Positions 3,395-20,765 of a stretch of 23,268 nt of DNA are shown here, piece after piece. Every line of letters starts with the position of its first letter. Position 1 is the stretch's first letter. Source of the DNA: a virus; the IMG/VR virus record IMGVR_UViG_3300025138_008075, positions 1 through 23,268 of that record. One strand, 5' to 3'. The notes under the pieces are model-generated. The model did not search any database. It saw only the letters and a program-made list of their open reading frames with translations, and was not told where the DNA came from. A program made the position numbers and the translations under genes.

Positions 3395-3805
3395 CTATTT
3401 AATGTCTATATGTCGTAATCTTTTTATGATATCGGAAGTGGAAATACCTTGTGTGTAAGGAGTATACTTCATGATGCCTAGTTCCAATGGAACTTTGTGT
3501 TGCTCCATGAAGTGTGGACCTGGATCATCTCCATGAACCACTACATCTATGTTATGCTCACGAATAAAGTCAATAGAAATATTTAGTGGTACATCTTTCA
3601 CTATTTCATCTACCAATCTACAATTTGCAATCAGTTCGTACCTATCTTCCTCACAGAATATAGGTTTTCTTTTGTATGACTCTACAGTAGAATCGGAGTG
3701 AATCCCCACAATTAAGTGAGTTCCATATTCTCTTGCTTTCTTAAAAAGATTTAAATGTCCAACATGAAATAAATCACCGACAATATCACAATATACACGA
3801 ATCAT
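3395..3805 (-). CDS. CTP-dependent cytidylyltransferase (HxGH family), likely AEP- or ethanolamine-phosphate-type
   Basis: A 136-residue member of the nucleotidyltransferase superfamily with HxGH and ISTSxII signatures. HVGH is at 14-17 within DIVGDLFHVGHLNLFKKA, KRKPIFCEEDRY follows near 45, VVHGDD near 89, and ISTSDII is at 121-127. The order and HGDD resemble ethanolamine-phosphate and glycerol-phosphate cytidylyltransferases. I chose the ATG at 3805 because the family N-terminus (IRVYCDIVGD) begins there. This start overlaps the end of the aminotransferase gene by 20 bases, indicating translational coupling. Next to an AEP transaminase, the likely substrate is AEP, giving CMP-AEP for transfer to a glycan or lipid (inference). 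The established CMP-AEP enzyme PntC belongs, as I recall, to a different, LicC-like fold, so this would be an analogue. Ethanolamine-phosphate or glycerol-phosphate are alternatives. Confidence 0.75.
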   Translation of the reverse strand: MIRVYCDIVGDLFHVGHLNLFKKAREYGTHLIVGIHSDSTVESYKRKPIFCEEDRYELIANCRLVDEIVKDVPLNISIDFIREHNIDVVVHGDDPGPHFMEQHKVPLELGIMKYTPYTQGISTSDIIKRLRHIDIK

Positions 3806-4772
3806 TAAATGCCTCAACAATTGAATTGAAATGTTCATCGAATAAAACACTCATGGTTGAAATCCTGAAACTATTCTCCACCCCTGCGATTCCCGAGTAT
3901 ATTACAATATCAAGATCATAAAGATAATCCCGAAGTTCCTCATAGGTCATGGTTGGATGTTTAAATCCTATCACAGAATTACTAGGTAGATAATTTATAC
4001 ACTCAATATCCAACGAAGAAAACGCATCGATAATCTTGTCTTTTCTTCTGTCAAATAGTTCACGCTGATTGTCTATAATTTTCAACGTGGTATTCAAAGC
4101 ACTTACAGACTGAACGGGGAGAGTGAACGGGAGATCTTCACCCATGTACCTTGTGAGGTCACAGTAGTATGATTGGTGGTTGTGTTCTAACTCGGGGTGC
4201 CAAATTACTACACCAAGACCTGGCGTAGATTGCAGACACTTGTTCCCACAAAAAGACATCCCCAATATCCTATCATAAAACCCTTCATAACAGGATGCAC
4301 CAAATGATGAGGTGGTGTCAATAAAGAATTTTGCGTTAGGATACAATTTAATCATCTCATCCAACGGAAATTTTTCTCCAGTTGTCGTTTCGTTTTCTAC
4401 GAAATAAACACATTCATATTCATCGTTTGGTTGCAGTTCATTTATGTTGGTCGCTTTGATTTCTGTATGTTCAATTCCGTACACATTCATAATATCAATC
4501 GCTCGCTTGCCATACGCACCCGCATTGATAATAGCAACATCGTCCATAACCACGGAGGAAATCATCGCCTCCATCCCAATCGTGCCACTACCTCCGAGAA
4601 GGGCGACATTAAATGATCTATCCCCGAACATATCAAGTAACAAATTCTTTGTCTCTTCCAAAACAACCTTAAAATCGTCTGTTCTATGACAAACATCGGA
4701 GTTTGTGTGCTGTGCGGCCTTTGTCTCTTCTCTTGTGTTTGTTGGGCCTGGGTTTAGTAAAATTTTGGTCAT
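3786..4772 (-). CDS. phnW: 2-aminoethylphosphonate:pyruvate transaminase-like, class V aminotransferase
   Basis: A 328-residue PLP enzyme of the class V family, somewhat shorter than typical PhnW (about 360-370). NPGPTNT lies at 7-13, the phosphate-binding GSGT at 61-64, VENETTTG at 125-132, the PLP-ring Asp at D152 (FFIDTTSSFG), and the Schiff-base Lys at K178 in GNKCLQSTPG. That last motif is close to the NKCIQGVPG of PhnW. PhnW interconverts phosphonoacetaldehyde and AEP; in a cluster with a PEP-mutase-like enzyme and a decarboxylase it would run in the AEP-forming direction. It starts with an ATGA overlap on the upstream methyltransferase and overlaps the downstream cytidylyltransferase. 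Other class V transaminases (serine-glyoxylate type) share most of these motifs, so the substrate call leans on context. Confidence 0.8.
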   Translation of the reverse strand: MTKILLNPGPTNTREETKAAQHTNSDVCHRTDDFKVVLEETKNLLLDMFGDRSFNVALLGGSGTIGMEAMISSVVMDDVAIINAGAYGKRAIDIMNVYGIEHTEIKATNINELQPNDEYECVYFVENETTTGEKFPLDEMIKLYPNAKFFIDTTSSFGASCYEGFYDRILGMSFCGNKCLQSTPGLGVVIWHPELEHNHQSYYCDLTRYMGEDLPFTLPVQSVSALNTTLKIIDNQRELFDRRKDKIIDAFSSLDIECINYLPSNSVIGFKHPTMTYEELRDYLYDLDIVIYSGIAGVENSFRISTMSVLFDEHFNSIVEAFNDSCIL

Positions 4773-5335
4773 TTGTCCATCTCAACATATACATTAAATC
4801 TAGGTCTGCCCTCTACAAAACCAGCAGAAACTTCCCAATCAGAAAATTTATCTGGTGTAAAAAGAAGGTGAGAATCATCATGAGATTCGTAAGCCAAGTC
4901 GCCCAGAAAAACACTTTGCTTTGATACTCTGAAAAGTTCTGCGATACACTCATCAGCGTATTGGTATGAAGGAAAATACTGGAAACTACTAAACACTATG
5001 ACTTTATCAAATGAATTGTCTTCAAAGGTCAGTTTATTCGCTTCAGAAACCACACAATCAGGAGAGGTTAGTTGTTTATACTTTTCGACCATACAAGACG
5101 AATAATCACAACCAAAATAATTACATTCATCAATAAAGTATTGTGATAAAGCACCGCTTCCGCAACCAACCTCTAAAACACTATCGGTTTTCTTAAGTGA
5201 TATAATATTTTTTATTCGAGAAGATACAAATTGCATGTCTACATTCGTCTGTTCCCAACCATTTATTAGCAATTTATCAGTTTCATCGCAACTGCTCTTT
5301 CTGTTCCATATGTTTTTCCAAGATAAATTTGTCAC
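4769..5335 (-). CDS. Class I SAM-dependent methyltransferase
   Basis: A 188-residue Rossmann-type methyltransferase. The SAM-binding motif I is VLEVGCGSGALSQYF (about 53-67). A motif II-like acidic segment FGCDYSSCMVE follows, and then LTFEDNSFDKVIVFSSFQYF, which is the usual motif III/IV region of small-molecule methyltransferases. The GTG at 5335 is the start; it forms a GTGA overlap with the stop of the decarboxylase beta gene, so its translation is coupled to the pathway. Its position between the phosphonopyruvate decarboxylase and the AEP transaminase suggests that it acts on a phosphonate intermediate or product (N-, O- or C-methylation), but nothing in the sequence fixes the substrate. 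Confidence 0.75.
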   Translation of the reverse strand: MTNLSWKNIWNRKSSCDETDKLLINGWEQTNVDMQFVSSRIKNIISLKKTDSVLEVGCGSGALSQYFIDECNYFGCDYSSCMVEKYKQLTSPDCVVSEANKLTFEDNSFDKVIVFSSFQYFPSYQYADECIAELFRVSKQSVFLGDLAYESHDDSHLLFTPDKFSDWEVSAGFVEGRPRFNVYVEMDK

Positions 5336-5790
5336 GATAAAAATCCCTTAACGTTTTTTGTATTTTCTAAACACTCAACACCAACACGCGGAGATTTGCC
5401 ATCATTAGATATCTTGTAGATTCTATCAATGCCTGGGTATGTTTTTTCTAGATGAGAACACTCGTACCCACCAACAGATTCATGACACCCATTATCCAAA
5501 ACATAAACATGTAGGTTTGGTAAATTAGCATCACGAATATTATGAGTTATACCCAAGTGCATCAATAAAGCGGCATCTCCACTAAGAACAACTACATCTT
5601 TTTCCGTATTCATCGCTATACCCAAACCAATACACGGAGCAAGGCCCATACTCCCTTGCATATAAAAAACATTTTTATGTTCGGGGTAGAGAGTATAAAC
5701 GGCTCTAGAGATATATCCCGTATTGGTAACAAACACAGCACCCTCATGCATGGAAAAAATTTGTTGGATTGCTTCTTCTCTAGTTAACAT
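5332..5790 (-). CDS. Phosphonopyruvate decarboxylase, beta (TPP pyrophosphate-binding) subunit
   Basis: A 152-residue polypeptide corresponding to the C-terminal half of phosphonopyruvate or sulfopyruvate decarboxylases. It carries the thiamine-diphosphate/Mg motif, GDA at 71-73 ending with Asn at 100 (VLDN), preceded by FYMQGSMGLAPCIGLGIA, typical of this family. HESVGGYE follows the motif. Together with the alpha gene just upstream (11-base overlap) it would form a heteromeric TPP enzyme converting phosphonopyruvate to phosphonoacetaldehyde and CO2, the step that makes the PEP mutase reaction irreversible. Phosphonopyruvate decarboxylases are usually one chain of about 380 residues; the split form resembles ComD/ComE sulfopyruvate decarboxylase. 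Sulfopyruvate is therefore an alternative substrate, less likely beside an AEP transaminase. Confidence 0.8.
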   Translation of the reverse strand: MLTREEAIQQIFSMHEGAVFVTNTGYISRAVYTLYPEHKNVFYMQGSMGLAPCIGLGIAMNTEKDVVVLSGDAALLMHLGITHNIRDANLPNLHVYVLDNGCHESVGGYECSHLEKTYPGIDRIYKISNDGKSPRVGVECLENTKNVKGFLS

Positions 5791-6175
5791 TATTACTACC
5801 CTCTACGATAGTATAGTTGGAGTAACCAATAAGGTCAAGTATTTCCTTGTCAGTTTCTCCCATGATTTTATGTTGCGGTAATGTATGTCGATGTCCCACT
5901 ATGAGATGGGGGAAAATTCCATGCGGTATACAAAGACTCGTTAGAGGATTTATGATATTACCGAGTCCTGAGTTTTGTAAATAAACGCATGTCTTTTTCC
6001 CTGCAAGTTCTGCACCGACGGCGATACCAACTGCTTGTCCTTCGTTTGTTGCTATAACATGAGACAGACCTGAATCTATCACCGAGTTCTGAAAAGGTTT
6101 CAATGCACTATCAGGAACCCCAGTGAAAAAATCATAACCATCATCAATCAGTTTTTCAAATAATTCATGAACCAT
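5780..6175 (-). CDS. Phosphonopyruvate decarboxylase, alpha (TPP pyrimidine-binding) subunit
   Basis: A 131-residue polypeptide matching the N-terminal domain of phosphonopyruvate or sulfopyruvate decarboxylase. FFTGVPDSALKPF is at about 16-28, the catalytic TPP-activating Glu at E45 (TNEGQAVGIA), YLQNSGLGNIINPLTSL at about 65-81, and PQH at 100-102 before a Met-Gly, matching the family's PQHxxxG segment. It starts at an ATG that overlaps the PEP-mutase-like gene by 11 bases and ends with TAG inside the beta gene. The two halves meet where the domain boundary lies in the single-chain enzyme. This looks like a stable two-subunit arrangement rather than a recent frameshift, because each half has its own start and both are intact. 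Confidence 0.8.
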   Translation of the reverse strand: MVHELFEKLIDDGYDFFTGVPDSALKPFQNSVIDSGLSHVIATNEGQAVGIAVGAELAGKKTCVYLQNSGLGNIINPLTSLCIPHGIFPHLIVGHRHTLPQHKIMGETDKEILDLIGYSNYTIVEGSNNVN

Positions 6176-7034
6176 ATCGTTTTTGATTTTCCTTTAGTTG
6201 ATCGACTCGAATCAAATCAAAAATAGTTTCCATTGGAACTATGTCATTATTAACGGACGATAAAGTTCCTTCGGTTTTAATTTTTTCAAACACCTCTTGA
6301 ATAACTTTAACTGTTGCCCGTACCGAACAGTTTGCGTAAATTGCCAAACTGAACCCAGCATCACACAATTCATTCTCGGTAATAGTGTTATATGTTGTAG
6401 GAACACAAACCAATGGCGCCCTCAAATTTTCTTTGTGATAAGCATCAGCAAACGCCAATACTTCATCGGGACTCTTACTCTTGCTGTGAATTAGAAACCC
6501 ATCACAACCTGCATCATTATACATCCTTGCTCGTTCCATTGCAACCTCTTGTCCGTATCCTTGAATTAAAGACTCGGTTCTGGCAATGATGGCAAAATCA
6601 TCGTTCAATCGCTTTTCCACTGCTGCTCTAATCTTCCCACACATGATCTCTTCAGATTCCAAAGACTGCTTCATGCCATAAAAGGAACACCTTTTAGGTG
6701 AGGGATTATCCTCAAAACACATGGCCGAGCCGCCTGCTTTTTCATACTCCCTTACCATGCGAATGGTATTGATTGCACTAGGACCGCCCTCATCTGCATC
6801 CACCAAGATTGGAATATCAATTCTGTCACTGATCTTGCTGATGGTGTCAAAATAATCTGCGGTGTTTAGTATGTTTGCATCTGGAAGTAGGTTCCATGCA
6901 TGTGATTCAAAACTAGAAATCCAAACACCATCATAACCAACTTTAGCGGCGATTTCGGCAAGCAAAGCATTACCCGCACCCATTACTATACTAGTTTTGT
7001 TTTTTGTGTTTAATAATTCTTTAATACTTTTCAT
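6165..7034 (-). CDS. pepM: PEP mutase-like enzyme of the isocitrate lyase superfamily
   Basis: A 289-residue TIM-barrel protein, the usual PepM length. Residues matching PEP mutase are W38 and S40 (GVWISS), D52 (PDANILN), the metal ligands D79 and D81 (VDAD), E108, R152 (IARTES) and H183 in HSKSKSPDE. PepM makes phosphonopyruvate from PEP, the entry step of nearly all phosphonate biosynthesis. The diagnostic gating-loop motif EDKxxxxxNS is altered: here E108-D109-N110, five residues, then C116-S117. Lys and Asn of the motif are thus replaced by Asn and Cys, and KRC recalls the lyase motif KKCGH without the final Gly-His. Context (decarboxylase downstream, AEP transaminase) favours PepM. A lyase or hydrolase of the same superfamily remains possible. 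It overlaps the RuBisCO-like gene by ATGA. Confidence 0.75.
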   Translation of the reverse strand: MKSIKELLNTKNKTSIVMGAGNALLAEIAAKVGYDGVWISSFESHAWNLLPDANILNTADYFDTISKISDRIDIPILVDADEGGPSAINTIRMVREYEKAGGSAMCFEDNPSPKRCSFYGMKQSLESEEIMCGKIRAAVEKRLNDDFAIIARTESLIQGYGQEVAMERARMYNDAGCDGFLIHSKSKSPDEVLAFADAYHKENLRAPLVCVPTTYNTITENELCDAGFSLAIYANCSVRATVKVIQEVFEKIKTEGTLSSVNNDIVPMETIFDLIRVDQLKENQKRYGS

Positions 7035-8167
7035 TTGATTGCCTCTCTAATCTTAGATGCGCCGGCGATAGTGCCGTTCGGATCACCATGAATTGCCCCA
7101 CCAACATTTGCCATCCAGTCAACCCCGAACCTGTCCCTGATTGGTTGAATAAGTTCGGCCTTCATACCGCAAGAAAGAGCAGGAACAACATTACGATCGG
7201 TCAGGATCTTAATGTTATTTCGTAGTTCTTCCTCATCATCACTCTTGTATCCACCCCACATACCAGAATGAATGGTATCGACACCGATCATACCTGCCAT
7301 GTCACAGACGACATCCCAATCAATTCCATACTTGTGAGTTGGTTCGGTAAATACCTTATCACCACTCTTCTGAAAGTGAATGAACAGTCCAGGCAGATCC
7401 ATCTTTCGGACAGAGTTATATGCACCCAAACCACACCACACATTGAGATGAACTCCGTTGCCACCGTTTTGGTGAACAAAAGAAACCCGATCAAGGATTG
7501 CGTGTGGGTCTGCGTTTACGCAAAAACAATAGACTACATTCCGACCACAGTTACTAATGTAGTTGGAAATTTTCTCGACACGATCTTCGAGTGAACAGAA
7601 CGATGGGTTTGCCATGATCTCATCTTCCTTGATAAAATCAACTCCACCATCCACCAACTGCTTAGTCATATCAAGAAGGCCATCAACTGAAAGTCCAATC
7701 TTTGGTTTAATGATAGAACCGAAAAGAGGCTTATCGTATTGACCAGTGAACTCTCGCATACCACTGAGTCCCATCTGTGGTCCAAGGAACTTGTCTTCGA
7801 CACACTTTGGGTACTTGACATCAACTAGTCTACATGAAGTGATGGTGTCAATGTCCATCTGACCACCCATCAATTGACAAAGTAGATGAGAGATACCATC
7901 ATTTTCCCAGTCAGTGTTGATTACAGGGAAAGCAATCTCAACCAGGCCTTCCTTGAAGTTTGCTAATTGGTTTTCATCACCAATGATGATACAAGAATTT
8001 CTCTCAAAGAGTTCTTCTGTTTCCCATTGATTACGAACATTGGGATTTCCCACGCTTTGTCCGATTGCTATATTCCATGCCGCATCTGCAAGACTAGTAC
8101 TAGCAGTTACATGGTAAGTTGCGATAACATATTTTTCGTTGTCAACAGAGTCTCTATAAAATTTCAT
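7031..8167 (-). CDS. RuBisCO-like protein (form IV-type large-chain homologue)
   Basis: A 378-residue RuBisCO large-chain family protein, shorter than true large subunits (about 470). Recognised blocks are CRLVDVKYP (112-120), FLGPQMGLSGMREFTG (127-142), GSIIKPKIGLS (150-160), GGVDFIKEDE (174-183), IHSG (299-302), LSCG (331-334) and VGGAIHGDP (355-363). K154/K156 correspond to K175/K177 of spinach RuBisCO, and K180-D182-E183 to the carbamylated K201 with D203/E204. H300 (H327) and the S332/G356-G357 region are also kept. Lost or changed are N123 (here Gly-Gly at 101-102), H294 and R295 (W244 and C245 in my alignment), and K334 (Y307, with K308 next to it). Bisphosphate carboxylation is therefore unlikely; an enolase or isomerase on a phosphorylated keto compound is more plausible. 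The gene overlaps both the cupin and pepM genes by 4 bases. Confidence 0.9.
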   Translation of the reverse strand: MKFYRDSVDNEKYVIATYHVTASTSLADAAWNIAIGQSVGNPNVRNQWETEELFERNSCIIIGDENQLANFKEGLVEIAFPVINTDWENDGISHLLCQLMGGQMDIDTITSCRLVDVKYPKCVEDKFLGPQMGLSGMREFTGQYDKPLFGSIIKPKIGLSVDGLLDMTKQLVDGGVDFIKEDEIMANPSFCSLEDRVEKISNYISNCGRNVVYCFCVNADPHAILDRVSFVHQNGGNGVHLNVWCGLGAYNSVRKMDLPGLFIHFQKSGDKVFTEPTHKYGIDWDVVCDMAGMIGVDTIHSGMWGGYKSDDEEELRNNIKILTDRNVVPALSCGMKAELIQPIRDRFGVDWMANVGGAIHGDPNGTIAGASKIREAIK

Positions 8168-8490
8168 TTTTTCACCTCATACTTATCACTCGGAATTGAT
8201 GGTGTCTTTACACAGAGTACCTTGCAGTCCTCTAGGAAAATCGGATCTGATACTTCATAGGGATCAAAGACAAAGATTTCGTTTGGATGAATAGTTTTAC
8301 CCTGAACGATCATCTTACCAGATAGTAAGACATTTATTTCAGTTGATTCTTTGTGGTAGTGGGCGGGCCACTTCTCATCCTTTTTGTGGATGAGGACGCC
8401 GACCTCGAAGTCCCGAGTCTTTAGCATGGTTGGTTCAAAGTCACCTATAAACCAACCTCTAGTCATATCATTCAAATTGCAAATTTTCAT
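8164..8490 (-). CDS. Small single-domain cupin protein
   Basis: A 108-residue cupin. The first cupin motif is WPAHYHKESTEINVLLSGKM, with H44, H46 and E51 as likely metal ligands. The second motif region IFVFDPYEVSDP lacks the usual His, so metal binding may be incomplete or involve another residue. Single-domain cupins of this size are often isomerases, small oxygenases or sugar-acid binding proteins. The stop overlaps the RuBisCO-like gene start (ATGA), and its own start lies 23 bases inside the upstream nucleotidyltransferase gene, so the three are probably co-translated. A role as partner enzyme of the RuBisCO-like protein is suggested by this coupling only. Confidence 0.75.
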   Translation of the reverse strand: MKICNLNDMTRGWFIGDFEPTMLKTRDFEVGVLIHKKDEKWPAHYHKESTEINVLLSGKMIVQGKTIHPNEIFVFDPYEVSDPIFLEDCKVLCVKTPSIPSDKYEVKK

Positions 8491-9199
8491 TACGAATATA
8501 TTCTCTCAAATCGTCGGGGGTGCCGACTGCATGGTGTTGACACTTCGGGATGTGGTAGATGCCAACCCGCTGCTGGCGTCTAACCATTTGGTTGTAAGAA
8601 GGACCGACATAGAACTCACCGTTCACTGCCCTGTCATCTTCTTCGACCATCTTATCATAACTATTTATAAAGTCAAGTCCACGTCTCCAGTAATGAATTC
8701 CGTTCAATGAAATATCACTGATGACTTCCTTCTCTCGGATCTCCTGAACGAGACCGTCCATGTCAATTCTTGCATAACTGTTTTTAGTTGAGTCACAGAA
8801 GTATGTGACAATCACCCCATCGAAACCATAGTACTGACAGTAGTGAATGAAGGCGGCACCGTCCCACCACATAATCTGATCGCAGTTAGCAACCACCAAC
8901 TGATCGTCGTTGTTGATTTCATCACGAACAAGGTTGACTGTAGAAGACGGGCCATCAGTGACATAATCAATCTCACGAATTAAACAGTCTGGTTTGATCC
9001 TTCTGAGATGCTCATGGATTTCTTCTGAGTGTTCTGTTTTTCTTGTGATAAAGATGTAACGACCGTCAATTCCAATCGACTCAATTGCCTTCTGGATCAT
9101 TGGGACATTGTTAATTTCAATTAGTGGCTTGGGTCGCGTGAACCCGTCGTCTGAGAATCTTTTTCCCAAACCAGCCATAGGGATGACTATATTTCTCAT
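8468..9199 (-). CDS. Nucleotidyltransferase (NDP-sugar / LicC-like pyrophosphorylase family)
   Basis: A 243-residue protein with the N-terminal signature IPMAGLGKRFSDDGF then TRPKPLIEI (residues 6-29), the nucleotide-binding loop and Lys of the GT-A-like nucleotidyltransferase superfamily. The metal-binding Asp is D107 in VVANCDQI. The family activates sugar phosphates or phosphocholine-type head groups with NTPs. I chose the ATG at 9199, where the family begins; a GTG at 9220 would add only seven residues not seen in relatives. The ribosome site AAGAGAAAATT before it is modest. It is one of three nucleotidyltransferases in the island, so it is either the sugar donor-forming enzyme or the one that activates the phosphonate; sequence alone does not decide. 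Confidence 0.75.
   Translation of the reverse strand: MRNIVIPMAGLGKRFSDDGFTRPKPLIEINNVPMIQKAIESIGIDGRYIFITRKTEHSEEIHEHLRRIKPDCLIREIDYVTDGPSSTVNLVRDEINNDDQLVVANCDQIMWWDGAAFIHYCQYYGFDGVIVTYFCDSTKNSYARIDMDGLVQEIREKEVISDISLNGIHYWRRGLDFINSYDKMVEEDDRAVNGEFYVGPSYNQMVRRQQRVGIYHIPKCQHHAVGTPDDLREYIRNENLQFE
8662..8669 (-). promoter_or_regulatory. Perfect T4 late-promoter octamer inside a coding region
   Basis: TATAAATA, identical to the T4 late promoter consensus, reads on the minus strand at 8669-8662, inside the nucleotidyltransferase gene. It lies 172 bases upstream of the cupin start and points toward the cupin, RuBisCO-like, pepM and decarboxylase genes. It is the only exact copy I found in the window. 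If active it would let the phosphonate submodule be expressed late and separately from the upstream glycosyltransferases. An 8-base AT-rich match can occur by chance in this sequence, so it remains a candidate. Confidence 0.3.
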
Positions 9200-9230
9200 A
9201 ATTTTCTCTTTTCTTCTCACTAATCATTTT

Positions 9231-9959
9231 TCATTTAAATACTTTTTCTACGTTGGTGTTACCAGACCGATATGATTTACCTTTTTCTTTGTAGATATCG
9301 GGTGGAACATTTTTAAATTTATCAATATGATACTGTTCATAAAAATCACCTTCTGCTTTTGGTGTATAAGTGAAAAACAAAAAAGGTCTTGGGATTTTAG
9401 TTTTGTTATCATACGAAGCGTGTGGAACATAACTATCGAAGAAGATGACATCACCTAAAGACGTACAAATCAATTTATAATCTAACTCCAATGTTAGGTC
9501 GGTGAAATTTGGTGTTAGTTGTTCTGTGATAGTGTCACCGAAATATATTCCACCATTTTCATCATCAGTATCACATAATGGAAGAGCAAAACTTACATGC
9601 TTATTTGTATAATTTCCCCAACCAGCAGTGATATCTTGGTGTGGTTGAAATCCTTCACCGCCTGGATATTTGTAGTTGATTTTGTCTTTAAACAAAATTG
9701 ATTCTTCGCCCATTAACTCATTGACTACATTTAATACTTTTTCAGAATTGGCAATATTCTTTAGTCCACTGTGGTGGTTAACAAAATATTCAATTCTATT
9801 AACTGTGGTGTTATCTGGTTCATAAAACTTCCAGATGTATTCTTTCCTATCTTCTTCGTTAGTGAGGGTAAAGACCATATCCTTAATGTTTTCTACTTCG
9901 TCAATAGTGAAGAAATTTTTCTTTAAAACTTTTCCAAATGCATTTTCCCAGTTATTCAT
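9231..9959 (-). CDS. Fe(II)/2-oxoglutarate dioxygenase, phytanoyl-CoA hydroxylase (PhyH) family
   Basis: A 242-residue PhyH-type oxygenase. The metal triad is visible as H107 and D109 (FQPHQDITAGW) and H170 (YVPHASYDN), with R181 (RPFLFFTYTP) placed to bind the 2-oxoglutarate carboxylate. KINYKYPGG before the HxD is the usual substrate-facing strand. PhyH enzymes include PhnY, which hydroxylates AEP at C1, and other phosphonate hydroxylases, so hydroxylation of AEP or of a sugar is plausible here. No PhnZ-like HD-domain partner lies nearby, which argues for tailoring rather than breakdown. The gene starts with a TAATG overlap on the preceding nucleotidyltransferase. The stretch is AT-rich compared with the RuBisCO-like gene. 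Confidence 0.85.
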   Translation of the reverse strand: MNNWENAFGKVLKKNFFTIDEVENIKDMVFTLTNEEDRKEYIWKFYEPDNTTVNRIEYFVNHHSGLKNIANSEKVLNVVNELMGEESILFKDKINYKYPGGEGFQPHQDITAGWGNYTNKHVSFALPLCDTDDENGGIYFGDTITEQLTPNFTDLTLELDYKLICTSLGDVIFFDSYVPHASYDNKTKIPRPFLFFTYTPKAEGDFYEQYHIDKFKNVPPDIYKEKGKSYRSGNTNVEKVFK

Positions 9960-17832: not shown

Positions 17833-18109
17833 TAATTACTCCGATAACATCATCAAAGTCTACAATATCAAATGCATCGTATCCATTAACCTTTCGCATA
17901 TCGTAGATCACAATATCCCCCACCGAAAACTCAGCCTCACGAATACGACCACTAGGATGCATCTTACCCTCACCGATCGCCATAACTTGACCTCGGATCC
18001 AATAGTCCATCTGCTTTTCTGAGTACACAATACCCTGTTCTGTAGTTTGTTCTCCTTTGGTTTCCCGCGAAAGAACAACCTTACCCCGTGTAGGAATCAT
18101 CATTTTCAT
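17819..18109 (-). CDS. GroES-like co-chaperonin
   Basis: A 96-residue protein of GroES length and pattern: MIPTRGKVVLSRE at the N-terminus (compare PLHDRVVVKR), a variable stretch of about residues 18-33 in the place of the mobile loop, then RGQVMAIGEGKM, FSVGDIVIYD and VIGVISE at the C-terminus. These are the conserved beta strands of the co-chaperonin ring. It would cap the host GroEL, as T4 gp31 does for capsid folding. The gene sits between 44 and 62, with ATGA at its start and a 14-base overlap with gene 62 at its end. T4 has no gene here; placement beside the clamp loader is unusual for me. Confidence 0.8.
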   Translation of the reverse strand: MKMMIPTRGKVVLSRETKGEQTTEQGIVYSEKQMDYWIRGQVMAIGEGKMHPSGRIREAEFSVGDIVIYDMRKVNGYDAFDIVDFDDVIGVISESE

Positions 18110-19041
18110 TTGAATTCACACCTCATCATAAGTTCTGTAAGACACGCCACCATGTTAATCTCATGGTCGGCAACGAAAGCCGACTTGTACTGATACTCTG
18201 CAAGAATCAGAACGGCTTCAGGAATAGAATGTGGTTTGATGTGATCATACAAACCATCATAAATTTTACGGAAGATCTGTGACTGATCGTTATCGAGATG
18301 TTCAACAACCCAACTACGAACCTTGCCGAACTCTTTTACTTTCATCGACGAGATCAACTGCTTAACACTGATATCACCCAACTCGGAAAGAATACCAACA
18401 TCAATCTTACCACCGACCGAGTATCGTTGAAGTTCGTTCAGAATTCGACGAATGTCTGGGAAGTGCTTCATGATCAACTTGGCAATAACCTCGTCATCAT
18501 ACGGAACATTTTCGTTCTTGAGAATCGTAGAGATTCGATCGTAGATCTGAGATGCCATTTTTGGTCGTTGATCCATTGGAATCTTGAACTCAACAACGGT
18601 ACATCGTGAGTGAAGTGGTTCGATGATCCTGTTCTTATAGTTACAAGTAAGAATGAACCGACAGTTCTTAGAGAACTCTTCAATGAATCCACGAAGAGCA
18701 GGCTGAGTAGACTGGGGATTGGAGTAATCAAACTCATCGAGAATGACAACCTTCTTTCCACCAGTCATCGATACCGTGCTTGCAAAGTTGCGAATCGTTG
18801 TTCGGAGTGTGTCGATGTTTCCATCTTCCGAACAGTTGATCATCATAAACTCACTGTCCATTTCATGGCAGAGGGCCCTTGCAACAGTCGTCTTTCCGCA
18901 ACCAGGCCCACCGCAGAGAAGCAGATTCTGAGTTTCCCCAGAGTCTACCATCTGCTTAAAGGTGGACTTGATCGAGTCAGGGAGAATGCAATCTCCGATC
19001 GTCTTCGGACGATACTTTTCTACCCAGAGAAATTCATCCAT
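18106..19041 (-). CDS. 44: Clamp loader large subunit gp44 (AAA+ ATPase)
   Basis: A 311-residue AAA+ protein. LWVEKYRPKTIGDCILP at 5-21 is the family start, Walker A GGPGCGKT is at 44-51, Walker B VVILDEFD at 98-105, and the SRC motif with the arginine finger R146 at 145-147. The start ATG at 19041 overlaps the end of gene 45 by 8 bases; the frame runs 35 residues further up, but that part encodes no gp44 sequence and lies within gene 45. gp44 hydrolyses ATP to open and place the gp45 ring. Confidence 0.97.
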   Translation of the reverse strand: MDEFLWVEKYRPKTIGDCILPDSIKSTFKQMVDSGETQNLLLCGGPGCGKTTVARALCHEMDSEFMMINCSEDGNIDTLRTTIRNFASTVSMTGGKKVVILDEFDYSNPQSTQPALRGFIEEFSKNCRFILTCNYKNRIIEPLHSRCTVVEFKIPMDQRPKMASQIYDRISTILKNENVPYDDEVIAKLIMKHFPDIRRILNELQRYSVGGKIDVGILSELGDISVKQLISSMKVKEFGKVRSWVVEHLDNDQSQIFRKIYDGLYDHIKPHSIPEAVLILAEYQYKSAFVADHEINMVACLTELMMRCEFK

Positions 19042-19729
19042 TGTACACAGAATCCGACTCAAGGGCGATCCAGTACTGGACACCAGAAGTTCGGTGGACA
19101 AAGTGACTGACAACCTGCTTGGCGATTGATACATCGTAATCACCACCGATCATCTTAAGGTTCTCAACCTTGAAGAAGAACTTAAAGTCAGGAGAATCGG
19201 TCGATAGTTCTCCGAGATCAATCGAATACGAGTTAGAACTGTTGTTTGCCTTCTTGTCAACAGCGGTCATCATAAGAGTTTCACCCTCAGTCTGAACACA
19301 AAGATCAGCAAGTCCAAGAACAGCAGCAGCCTTCTGGAGTTCAACAAGATCCCGCTGTCGAAGTTCAAAATCAACGACAGAATCTGGCATCGTGATCTTC
19401 TTACTTGGTGTAGTAATAAGATTGGGAGCGGAGTAGAAGTAGCGAACGCTAGATCCATTTTTTCCCGAGATCATAACATGGTTCTCCTCAAACTCGAATG
19501 TTGGATTATCGAAGAGACTGATCGTTCCAAGGAACTGATTCAGATCCCAGATAGCGATCTCTCGGTCAAAATCCTCTTCGATCTCTGCTTCAGCCATGAT
19601 GTTCTTCATGGGAGAAACAGTGGTAAGAGTATTACCAGGCTTGATTAGAATGTTAGAGTTGATCCCAGCAAAGTTCTTTAGAATCGCCAGGGTCTTTTCC
19701 GATAGGACGGTCTTAGTTTTAGTCATCAT
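19034..19729 (-). CDS. 45: DNA polymerase sliding clamp gp45
   Basis: A 231-residue protein from ATG 19729, close to the 228 of T4 gp45. Matches include LAILKNFAGINSNILIKPG, IAIWDLNQFLGTISLF, SIDLGEL and the C-terminal WIALESDS. It forms the trimeric ring that holds the polymerase and, in T4, activates late transcription. Two ATG codons in tandem (19729, 19726) follow an AGGAG site; the frame is open to TTG 19738, but ATG fits family length and lies 2 bases after the preceding stop. Its stop overlaps the gp44 start by 8 bases. Confidence 0.96.
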   Translation of the reverse strand: MMTKTKTVLSEKTLAILKNFAGINSNILIKPGNTLTTVSPMKNIMAEAEIEEDFDREIAIWDLNQFLGTISLFDNPTFEFEENHVMISGKNGSSVRYFYSAPNLITTPSKKITMPDSVVDFELRQRDLVELQKAAAVLGLADLCVQTEGETLMMTAVDKKANNSSNSYSIDLGELSTDSPDFKFFFKVENLKMIGGDYDVSIAKQVVSHFVHRTSGVQYWIALESDSVYNG

Positions 19730-19731
19730 AT

Positions 19732-19923
19732 TCACCAATCTCCTTGTTCAAGGTCTTCTGCATAATCATCAAATTTATTACTATCATTCATAAGATCACG
19801 AAGCATTTTCTTGTCTTGTTTTCTCTTACCCTTACGTTGTTCACGACGAACACCGCGAGTACCATCTTCTTCATAGTCTTCTGCCCAAGATCTTTTCTTA
19901 GGCTTTCTGTAGTCCCTAGACAT
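19732..19923 (-). CDS. Small highly charged conserved-type protein of unknown function
   Basis: A 63-residue protein starting MSRDYRKPKKRSWAEDYEE and rich in Lys, Arg, Asp and Glu, with a basic middle (REQRKGKRKQDKK) and an acidic end. No Cys and no membrane segment. I recall similar short basic proteins near gene 45 in other marine T4-like phages, but not a function. It starts one base inside the RNase H stop (TAATG) and ends 2 bases before the gp45 ATG, so it is co-translated with replication genes. A nucleic-acid or clamp-binding role is only a guess. Confidence 0.65.
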   Translation of the reverse strand: MSRDYRKPKKRSWAEDYEEDGTRGVRREQRKGKRKQDKKMLRDLMNDSNKFDDYAEDLEQGDW

Positions 19924-20765
19924 TAAAAGTCTCCGATGCTTTCCATTAGATTCTTCAATCCTTTTTGAATAAAGTAATCGAGAAGGCCACTCCGTGACGC
20001 AATCTCTTGTGTGTCGTAATTTTCATTGATTCTTTCAACCACATCAGACGGAATATAGTTGAAGTCAATCAACTGTCTGTTCCTATCATAGTTCCTTGAG
20101 ATCGTTTCGTCAACCTCAAATCCATCAATAACTTCACGAACGCGAGTCTTCGCCTTTGCGTTCATTGGCTTCTGTCGCTTTCCTTCTACCACAAACGTAT
20201 CGTCATCAGACAGAATGTTTGGAACACCGTCACTCACATCACCCTTCATAATATGATTGAAGAGAAAGGAGTCGGGACGATCACATACCAACATCTTCTT
20301 TTGAATTGGACTGTACTGATTCACGCCTGGATATACTTGCAACTGCTGAAAATCTTTGTCACCAGAAATGATCATGATCTTTTCCTGCTGATGAAACCGA
20401 GCAGTAAGAACCGCAATGATATCATCGGCTTCACATGCATCCACAGTCAAATTCTTATATGGTAAGTTATCGCGTACTTCGTTACGAATACTGGTCAAGG
20501 AGTCATAGATTGAACTCCAATCGACGCTAGAGTCCTTCTGCTGCTTCTTACGAGCAGCCTTGTAGTGTTCAAAGACACCACGACGCCAAGGTCCACCTGC
20601 ATCATTACAGATAACAAGTTCGCCATGATCCGAAAACTTAGAACGATACATGCGGTATGTATTGAGGACGAGATGACGTATAAAATCATCATCTATGTTT
20701 GGATTATATTTGATTGACTGGAAAATGCTTGCCAGAATAATCTGACTATTATCAAGGAGTATCAC
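19923..20765 (-). CDS. rnh: RNase H / 5'-3' exonuclease of the T4 Rnh type
   Basis: A 280-residue flap nuclease (T4 Rnh is 305). Metal-binding acids appear in the expected places: D5 (LLDNSQI), D55 (CNDAGGPWRR), E112, D114 and D115 (CEADDIIAVL), D136 and D138 (SGDKDFQQL), and D176/D179 (KGDVSDGVPN). The C-terminal IDFNYIP and LLDYFIQKGL match T4 Rnh (IDFDYIP). It removes RNA primers and adjacent DNA from lagging-strand fragments. Start is a GTG at 20765, 10 bases after the upstream stop, and the conserved sequence begins right there. In T4 rnh is not next to 45; here it joins the replication operon. Confidence 0.92.
   Translation of the reverse strand: MILLDNSQIILASIFQSIKYNPNIDDDFIRHLVLNTYRMYRSKFSDHGELVICNDAGGPWRRGVFEHYKAARKKQQKDSSVDWSSIYDSLTSIRNEVRDNLPYKNLTVDACEADDIIAVLTARFHQQEKIMIISGDKDFQQLQVYPGVNQYSPIQKKMLVCDRPDSFLFNHIMKGDVSDGVPNILSDDDTFVVEGKRQKPMNAKAKTRVREVIDGFEVDETISRNYDRNRQLIDFNYIPSDVVERINENYDTQEIASRSGLLDYFIQKGLKNLMESIGDF

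Follow-up and report, generated by a model that had tools for sequence, protein, structure and literature searches.

A RuBisCO-like protein on a T4-like phage fragment belongs to a distinct clade linked to a sugar-activating gene

RuBisCO-like proteins (RLPs) have been assigned to only a few cellular metabolic routes, and the known members enolise phosphorylated keto compounds. Described RLPs include MtnW, the 2,3-diketo-5-methylthiopentyl-1-phosphate enolase, and the OiaX-like RLPs of apionate breakdown. In Rhodospirillum rubrum, the Deep-Ykr RLP (Rru_A1998) adjoins a cupin (Rru_A2000); the RLP shifts the carbonyl along a pentulose phosphate and the cupin then acts on the product (PMC4958253). 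A further subgroup, IV-GOS, is marine, unplaced and without function, and is known only from ocean sampling sequences (PMC1821046, PMC10173188). The phage RLP described here also adjoins a cupin, but it falls in a different clade from the R. rubrum protein, the cupins differ in length and context, and its partner is a nucleotidyltransferase, which has not been reported for the R. rubrum pair.

The window, that is the whole stretch of DNA analysed, is a viral contig of 23,268 bases. The features of the module are the following.

8468-9220, minus strand: sugar-phosphate nucleotidyltransferase (NTPT), 250 aa (PHROG 3980, E=1e-52)
8164-8490, minus strand: small cupin, 108 aa, with the metal-type motif HxH...E (PHROG 24762, E=8e-32; alignment, model)
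8164-8167, minus strand: ATGA overlap of cupin stop and RLP start (direct sequence reading)
7031-8167, minus strand: RLP (Pfam, model and PDB fold match, tree, residue table, alignment)

The RLP frame is complete, with an ATG at 8167, a stop at 7031 and 378 aa, while stops interrupt the plus strand of the same interval. An earlier note on this DNA had given these coordinates exactly, the coding strand being the minus strand. It had also described the gene as translationally coupled on both sides, and both four-base overlaps are real: in addition to the one with the cupin, a second ATGA at 7031-7034 joins the RLP stop to the start of a PEP-mutase-like gene, again by direct reading. The T4-like phage origin is supported by the viral record and by PHROGs matches to a clamp loader (18106-19146), a sliding clamp (19034-19738) and an exonuclease (19923-20765). 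Both large-chain domains score above cut-off in Pfam (RuBisCO_large, E=8e-36; RuBisCO_large_N, 5e-5), and the RuBisCO sequence blocks named previously are present. The AlphaFold2 model (pLDDT 93.1, pTM 0.91) has a RuBisCO fold, the top solved structure being the form III RuBisCO 2d69 (query TM 0.88, 27% identity), with MtnW close behind (2oem, query TM 0.84). The observation of a RuBisCO-superfamily gene on a T4-like phage fragment is thus confirmed.

This gene is not an isolated case. Relatives are encoded on 169 IMG/VR stretches in a single-sequence scan and on about 340 in an alignment-based scan, all RLP-bearing contigs being fragments. Among 50,697 deposited phages there were no matches, no PHROG family matched the RLP, and no RuBisCO fold was present among the BFVD viral structures. 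No paper on a phage RLP was found in the literature searched, whose partial coverage does not prove absence. An uncharacterised, unannotated branch of the RuBisCO family without the carbon-fixing residues is carried by numerous phages of marine and fresh waters and by a few bacteria.

The branch was placed in a tree of 86 sequences, comprising 40 phage-type members, 4 MtnW, 13 Deep-Ykr-like, IV-Photo and OiaX-like proteins, and references of forms I-III. Labels of the OiaX-like, Chlorobium-type and form III references were based on NCBIfam or PDB matches, and the Deep-Ykr label on an adjacent cupin in 6 of the 13. In six Pseudomonadota and Bacteroidota genomes (L315, L321, L324, L326, L327, L328), the gene directly after the RLP is cupin-like and encodes about 150 aa, an arrangement that resembles the R. 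rubrum MTA-shunt. All 40 phage-type sequences fall into a single clade (ultrafast bootstrap 100, branch 0.83), separate from RuBisCO I-III, MtnW, Deep-Ykr-like, IV-Photo (Chlorobium and R. palustris RLP2) and OiaX-like proteins. MtnW and the Deep-Ykr-like sequences group together at 99 with the phage-type clade outside; an apparent MtnW kinship in a first tree, which held a single MtnW sequence, vanished once the 4 MtnW and 13 Deep-Ykr-like sequences were included and was discarded. The nearest neighbour of the clade is poorly resolved, with OiaX-like RLPs at a support of 70. Profile scores agree with this separation, as the phage RLP stays far under all NCBIfam equivalog cut-offs, its best family being form III (184.6 against a cut-off of 497.45). 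The protein lies, as the earlier note had supposed, outside every RLP family of assigned function, and tree, scores and residues together rule out membership in the MtnW, Deep-Ykr, OiaX-like or IV-Photo groups. The clade may correspond to the orphan IV-GOS group, which is likewise marine, unplaced and without function. In that case the clade itself is already on record, and the novelty is confined to its genomic context and proposed role.

Residues of the 40 clade members were tabulated in RuBisCO site numbering against the references. K175, K177, K201, D203, E204, S379, G381, G403 and G404 are kept in 40 of 40, so that the KPK motif is retained throughout and the phosphate-site glycines are invariant. 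The carbamate lysine and Mg ligands K201, D203 and E204 correspond to K180, D182 and E183 of the phage protein, the triad that had been recognised from the sequence, and are likewise found in every member. Seven sites are replaced in all 40 (E60 to G, T65 to N, W66 to P, N123 to G, H294 to Q, K334 to Y and G380 to C), while R295 (K, S or R) and H298 (D, A or I) vary within the clade. The earlier note was right that N123 and K334 are lost, the two sites being G102 and Y307 here, but it mistook W244 and C245 for the equivalents of H294 and R295, which are in fact Q266 and K267. Its expectation that the protein does not carboxylate ribulose bisphosphate stands, given the uniform loss of E60, T65, W66, N123, H294 and K334. 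With a RuBisCO fold and substituted carboxylase residues, the phage protein is a form IV RLP in the broad sense. Because H294 is Q and both R295 and H298 vary, RuBisCO's second phosphate site is changed in the clade, and the residues point only weakly to a particular substrate.

Gene-neighbourhood counts were made on 164 RLP loci, some on duplicated contigs, which reduce to 83 distinct loci at 90% identity. The most conserved partner is the NTPT, no more than four genes away in 79 of the 83; a cupin lies within two genes in 48, and a GDPD-like protein within four genes in 50. The cupin and the GDPD-like gene are absent at many loci, and some loci without partners end at contig ends. In the phage fragment the NTPT has a profile match to 4evw (E=3e-32), with Pfam NTP_transf_3 below cut-off, and the cupin model (pLDDT 88.4) matches cupin folds, with archaeal phosphomannose isomerases of the cupin type among the nearest but scoring modestly (7zvm, query TM 0.68). 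The GDPD-like protein of the relatives is only about 150 aa long and matches solved GDPD enzymes weakly (E=6e-4), yet its H-R, E-N, E-x-D and G-H motif positions are kept in the alignment. A PhyH-type 2-oxoglutarate dioxygenase gene (Pfam; 9231-9959, minus strand) lies directly upstream of the NTPT of the fragment and occurs in none of the other loci of a first comparison set.

A second version of the module, with other enzymes in place of the RLP, is found in cyanophages. With the cupin of Synechococcus phage SynMITS9220M01 as starting point, 72 viral loci were collected and joined with 4 deposited phage regions to give 76. These carry an operon of HAD(KdsC), PfkB, NTPT, cupin and GDPD, with RpiB fused to the NTPT (L090-L161, L086, L087; Bellamy and SynMITS9220M01 among the deposited phages). 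The NTPT, cupin and GDPD are homologous to those of the RLP module and similarly ordered, whereas a HAD phosphatase, a PfkB kinase and mostly also RpiB (63 of 76 loci) replace the RLP. In deposited phages the fusion proteins are labelled 'phosphatase' or hypothetical, and one such 385-aa 'phosphatase' beside the cupin, considered as a distant RLP, proved to be an NTPT::RpiB fusion. The two versions keep apart: no RLP occurs in the 76 cyanophage-type loci or in 44 whole records of this type, although the same model readily finds RLPs elsewhere, and Pfam finds LacAB_rpiB on none of 41 RLP contigs and PfkB on three, two of them with the gene about 4 kb from the RLP. PfkB figures are those of Pfam: the neighbourhood counts had relied on a single-sequence PfkB model, which missed genes that Pfam found and whose zero counts were set aside. 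As the cyanophage loci are closely interrelated, this separation is a contrast of two gene sets and not a record of many independent exchanges. A tree of the NTPTs from both versions did not demonstrate a shared substrate.

Cells carry the RLP only rarely. It was found in one Patescibacteria MAG (of 287 sampled), in three Pelagibacterales genomes (of 247), and on a Bacteroidota (L082) and a Sphingobacteriales (L085) MAG contig. The neighbours of the last, as read from sequence, are phage-like (PhoH-like, peptidase, GroES-like), which makes its bacterial assignment doubtful. In one SAR11 genome (G1291, L312), a GDPD-NTPT-RLP order is followed by two genes that we take, by eye, to be epimerase-like and glycosyltransferase-like, all within a polysaccharide island. 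In another (G1358, L313), the RLP presumably lies between two nucleotidyltransferases, in an island that the same by-eye reading places between gyrB and the genes lepA, pheT and pheS. In the Patescibacteria contig (L084), four module genes stand among genes that we read, again by eye, as glycosyltransferases. In SAR11 and Patescibacteria the module thus sits in surface-glycan islands. In the tree, two SAR11 copies (L083, L312) sit within the phage sequences, which suggests transfer between phage and host, while L313 branches first.

Since the RLP nearly always stands beside a sugar-activating gene, it probably helps to make an unusual sugar of the surface coat rather than serving carbon fixation or phosphonates. 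We consider it an even call that the RLP and NTPT, usually with the cupin and the short GDPD-like protein, form a module for the synthesis of a nucleotide-activated sugar or sugar-like unit, with the RLP as a ketose-phosphate isomerase. In such a module, carbamylated K180 and a Mg2+ held by D182 and E183 would enolise a phosphorylated ketose, probably a pentulose phosphate; proton transfer would shift the carbonyl, and the isomer would be handed to the cupin and nucleotidyltransferase. The activated unit could then pass to glycosyltransferases that work on a glycan of the virion or of the cell surface. By reasoning on paper, a C2-to-C4 shift of the carbonyl in a pentulose 5-phosphate would formally, upon renumbering, give a pentulose 1-phosphate. 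Neither kinase nor phosphatase would be needed for such a product, which would account for the absence of the phosphatase, kinase and RpiB of the cyanophage version. An NDP-ketose made from it would be no ordinary glycosyl donor, and the product could serve phosphodiester transfer instead.

We infer the isomerisation, the substrate, the order of steps and the product from the family, the clade, the residue pattern, the gene linkage, the separation of the two versions and the surface-island context in cells. Supporting an isomerase are the partner counts for NTPT, cupin and GDPD, the distinctness of the two gene sets, the surface-glycan setting, the invariant Mg and carbamate residues with the phosphate-site glycines, the phosphomannose isomerases among the cupin fold matches, and the R. 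rubrum precedent (PMC4958253). Weakening it are the altered second phosphate site, the PfkB genes on three RLP contigs, the frequent absence of cupin and GDPD, the relatedness of the cyanophage loci and the failure of the NTPT tree to reveal a common substrate. The fuller proposal, that the RLP of phages and SAR11 was recruited to nucleotide-sugar biosynthesis and that a carbonyl shift in a ketopentose phosphate replaces kinase, phosphatase and aldose-ketose isomerase, is put forward as tentative, and is rather less likely than the module itself.

Within the same nucleotide-sugar module, the RLP could instead decarboxylate, hydrolyse or cleave a branched or acidic sugar phosphate, much as OiaX-like RLPs act in apionate breakdown. 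The weak grouping in the tree favours such chemistry, as does an OiaX profile match of E=6e-41, though its score of 140.6 is far below the cut-off of 700. The OiaX-like and IV-NonPhoto RLPs keep E60, N123, H294, R295 and K334, a set that the phage clade does not share, the replacement of H294, R295 and K334 speaking against this chemistry, and no sugar-acid genes recur beside the RLP. We regard it as unlikely.

A much poorer fit is a methionine-salvage or MTA-shunt enzyme of the MtnW or Deep-Ykr kind that would, during infection, provide sulfur or precursors of isoprenoids. The adjacency of RLP and cupin resembles the R. rubrum pair, the MtnW fold match nearly equals that of RuBisCO, and MtnW shares the carbamate/Mg triad and G at site 60. 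Nevertheless, the clades are separate with support of 100 each; MtnW profile scores of 99.8 to 134.7 contrast with cut-offs of 513.6 and 409; and site 123 is a lysine in all four MtnW but G in the 40 phage-type members. MtnW keeps H294, which is Q in the phage clade, and the phage clade keeps K177, which is lost in the MtnW, Deep-Ykr-like, IV-Photo and OiaX-like references used. No salvage genes recur at the loci, where the partner is a nucleotidyltransferase. We think this role very improbable.

Slightly less credible still is an RLP that, in this phage, works with the product of the PEP-mutase-like gene on a phosphonate or on a compound derived from PEP, the link that the earlier note had drawn. 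The ATGA overlap speaks for it, as does the phosphonate-type set that follows on the same strand (3395-7034): a PEP-mutase-like protein, split phosphonopyruvate decarboxylase-like alpha and beta chains, a methyltransferase, a PhnW-like aminotransferase and a cytidylyltransferase-like protein. Overlaps between adjacent genes occur over most of this strand, however, which makes this one weak evidence. PEP_mutase occurs on none of 49 other RLP-bearing viral contigs, and the pepM of the fragment has no match in 84 other loci of the first comparison set. A phosphonate role cannot be the function of the family, whose conserved partners are the NTPT, cupin and GDPD-like protein. Of the former interpretation, the RLP, its T4-like phage, the lack of expected carboxylation and the absence of an assigned family survive, and the phosphonate link falls. 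The set occupies the place of the GDPD and glycosyltransferases in relatives, no GDPD gene being near the RLP of the fragment. In the alignment, this RLP stops about 18 residues short of the usual family end and is without EY..AI.KWG, the C-terminal tail conserved in most relatives; the downstream set may have taken the place of the neighbour usually found there, shortening the RLP gene. The PEP-mutase-like protein scores below the PEP-mutase cut-off and reads EDNPSPKRCS, where the usual motif is EDKx5NS. An aminoethylphosphonate decoration set on a phage would be worth a study of its own.

Finally, the idea of an active carboxylase that fixes carbon for the infected host, which the overall fold, the form III top score and the retained KPK might suggest, is rejected as next to impossible on the six residues replaced in 40 of 40 and on a form III score so far under its cut-off.

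Taken together, a whole clade of RLPs extends across hundreds of viral contigs and is tied to sugar activation, and a viral 'RuBisCO' match in environmental data need not signify carbon fixation. The two alternative gene sets, RLP versus HAD/PfkB/RpiB, make the function directly testable. SAR11 are the most abundant bacteria in the ocean. If the proposed isomerase role is true, it would add a new reaction to the RuBisCO superfamily, give an orphan group of marine RLPs its first function, and place the RuBisCO fold in the building of surface glycans, common to marine phages and SAR11.
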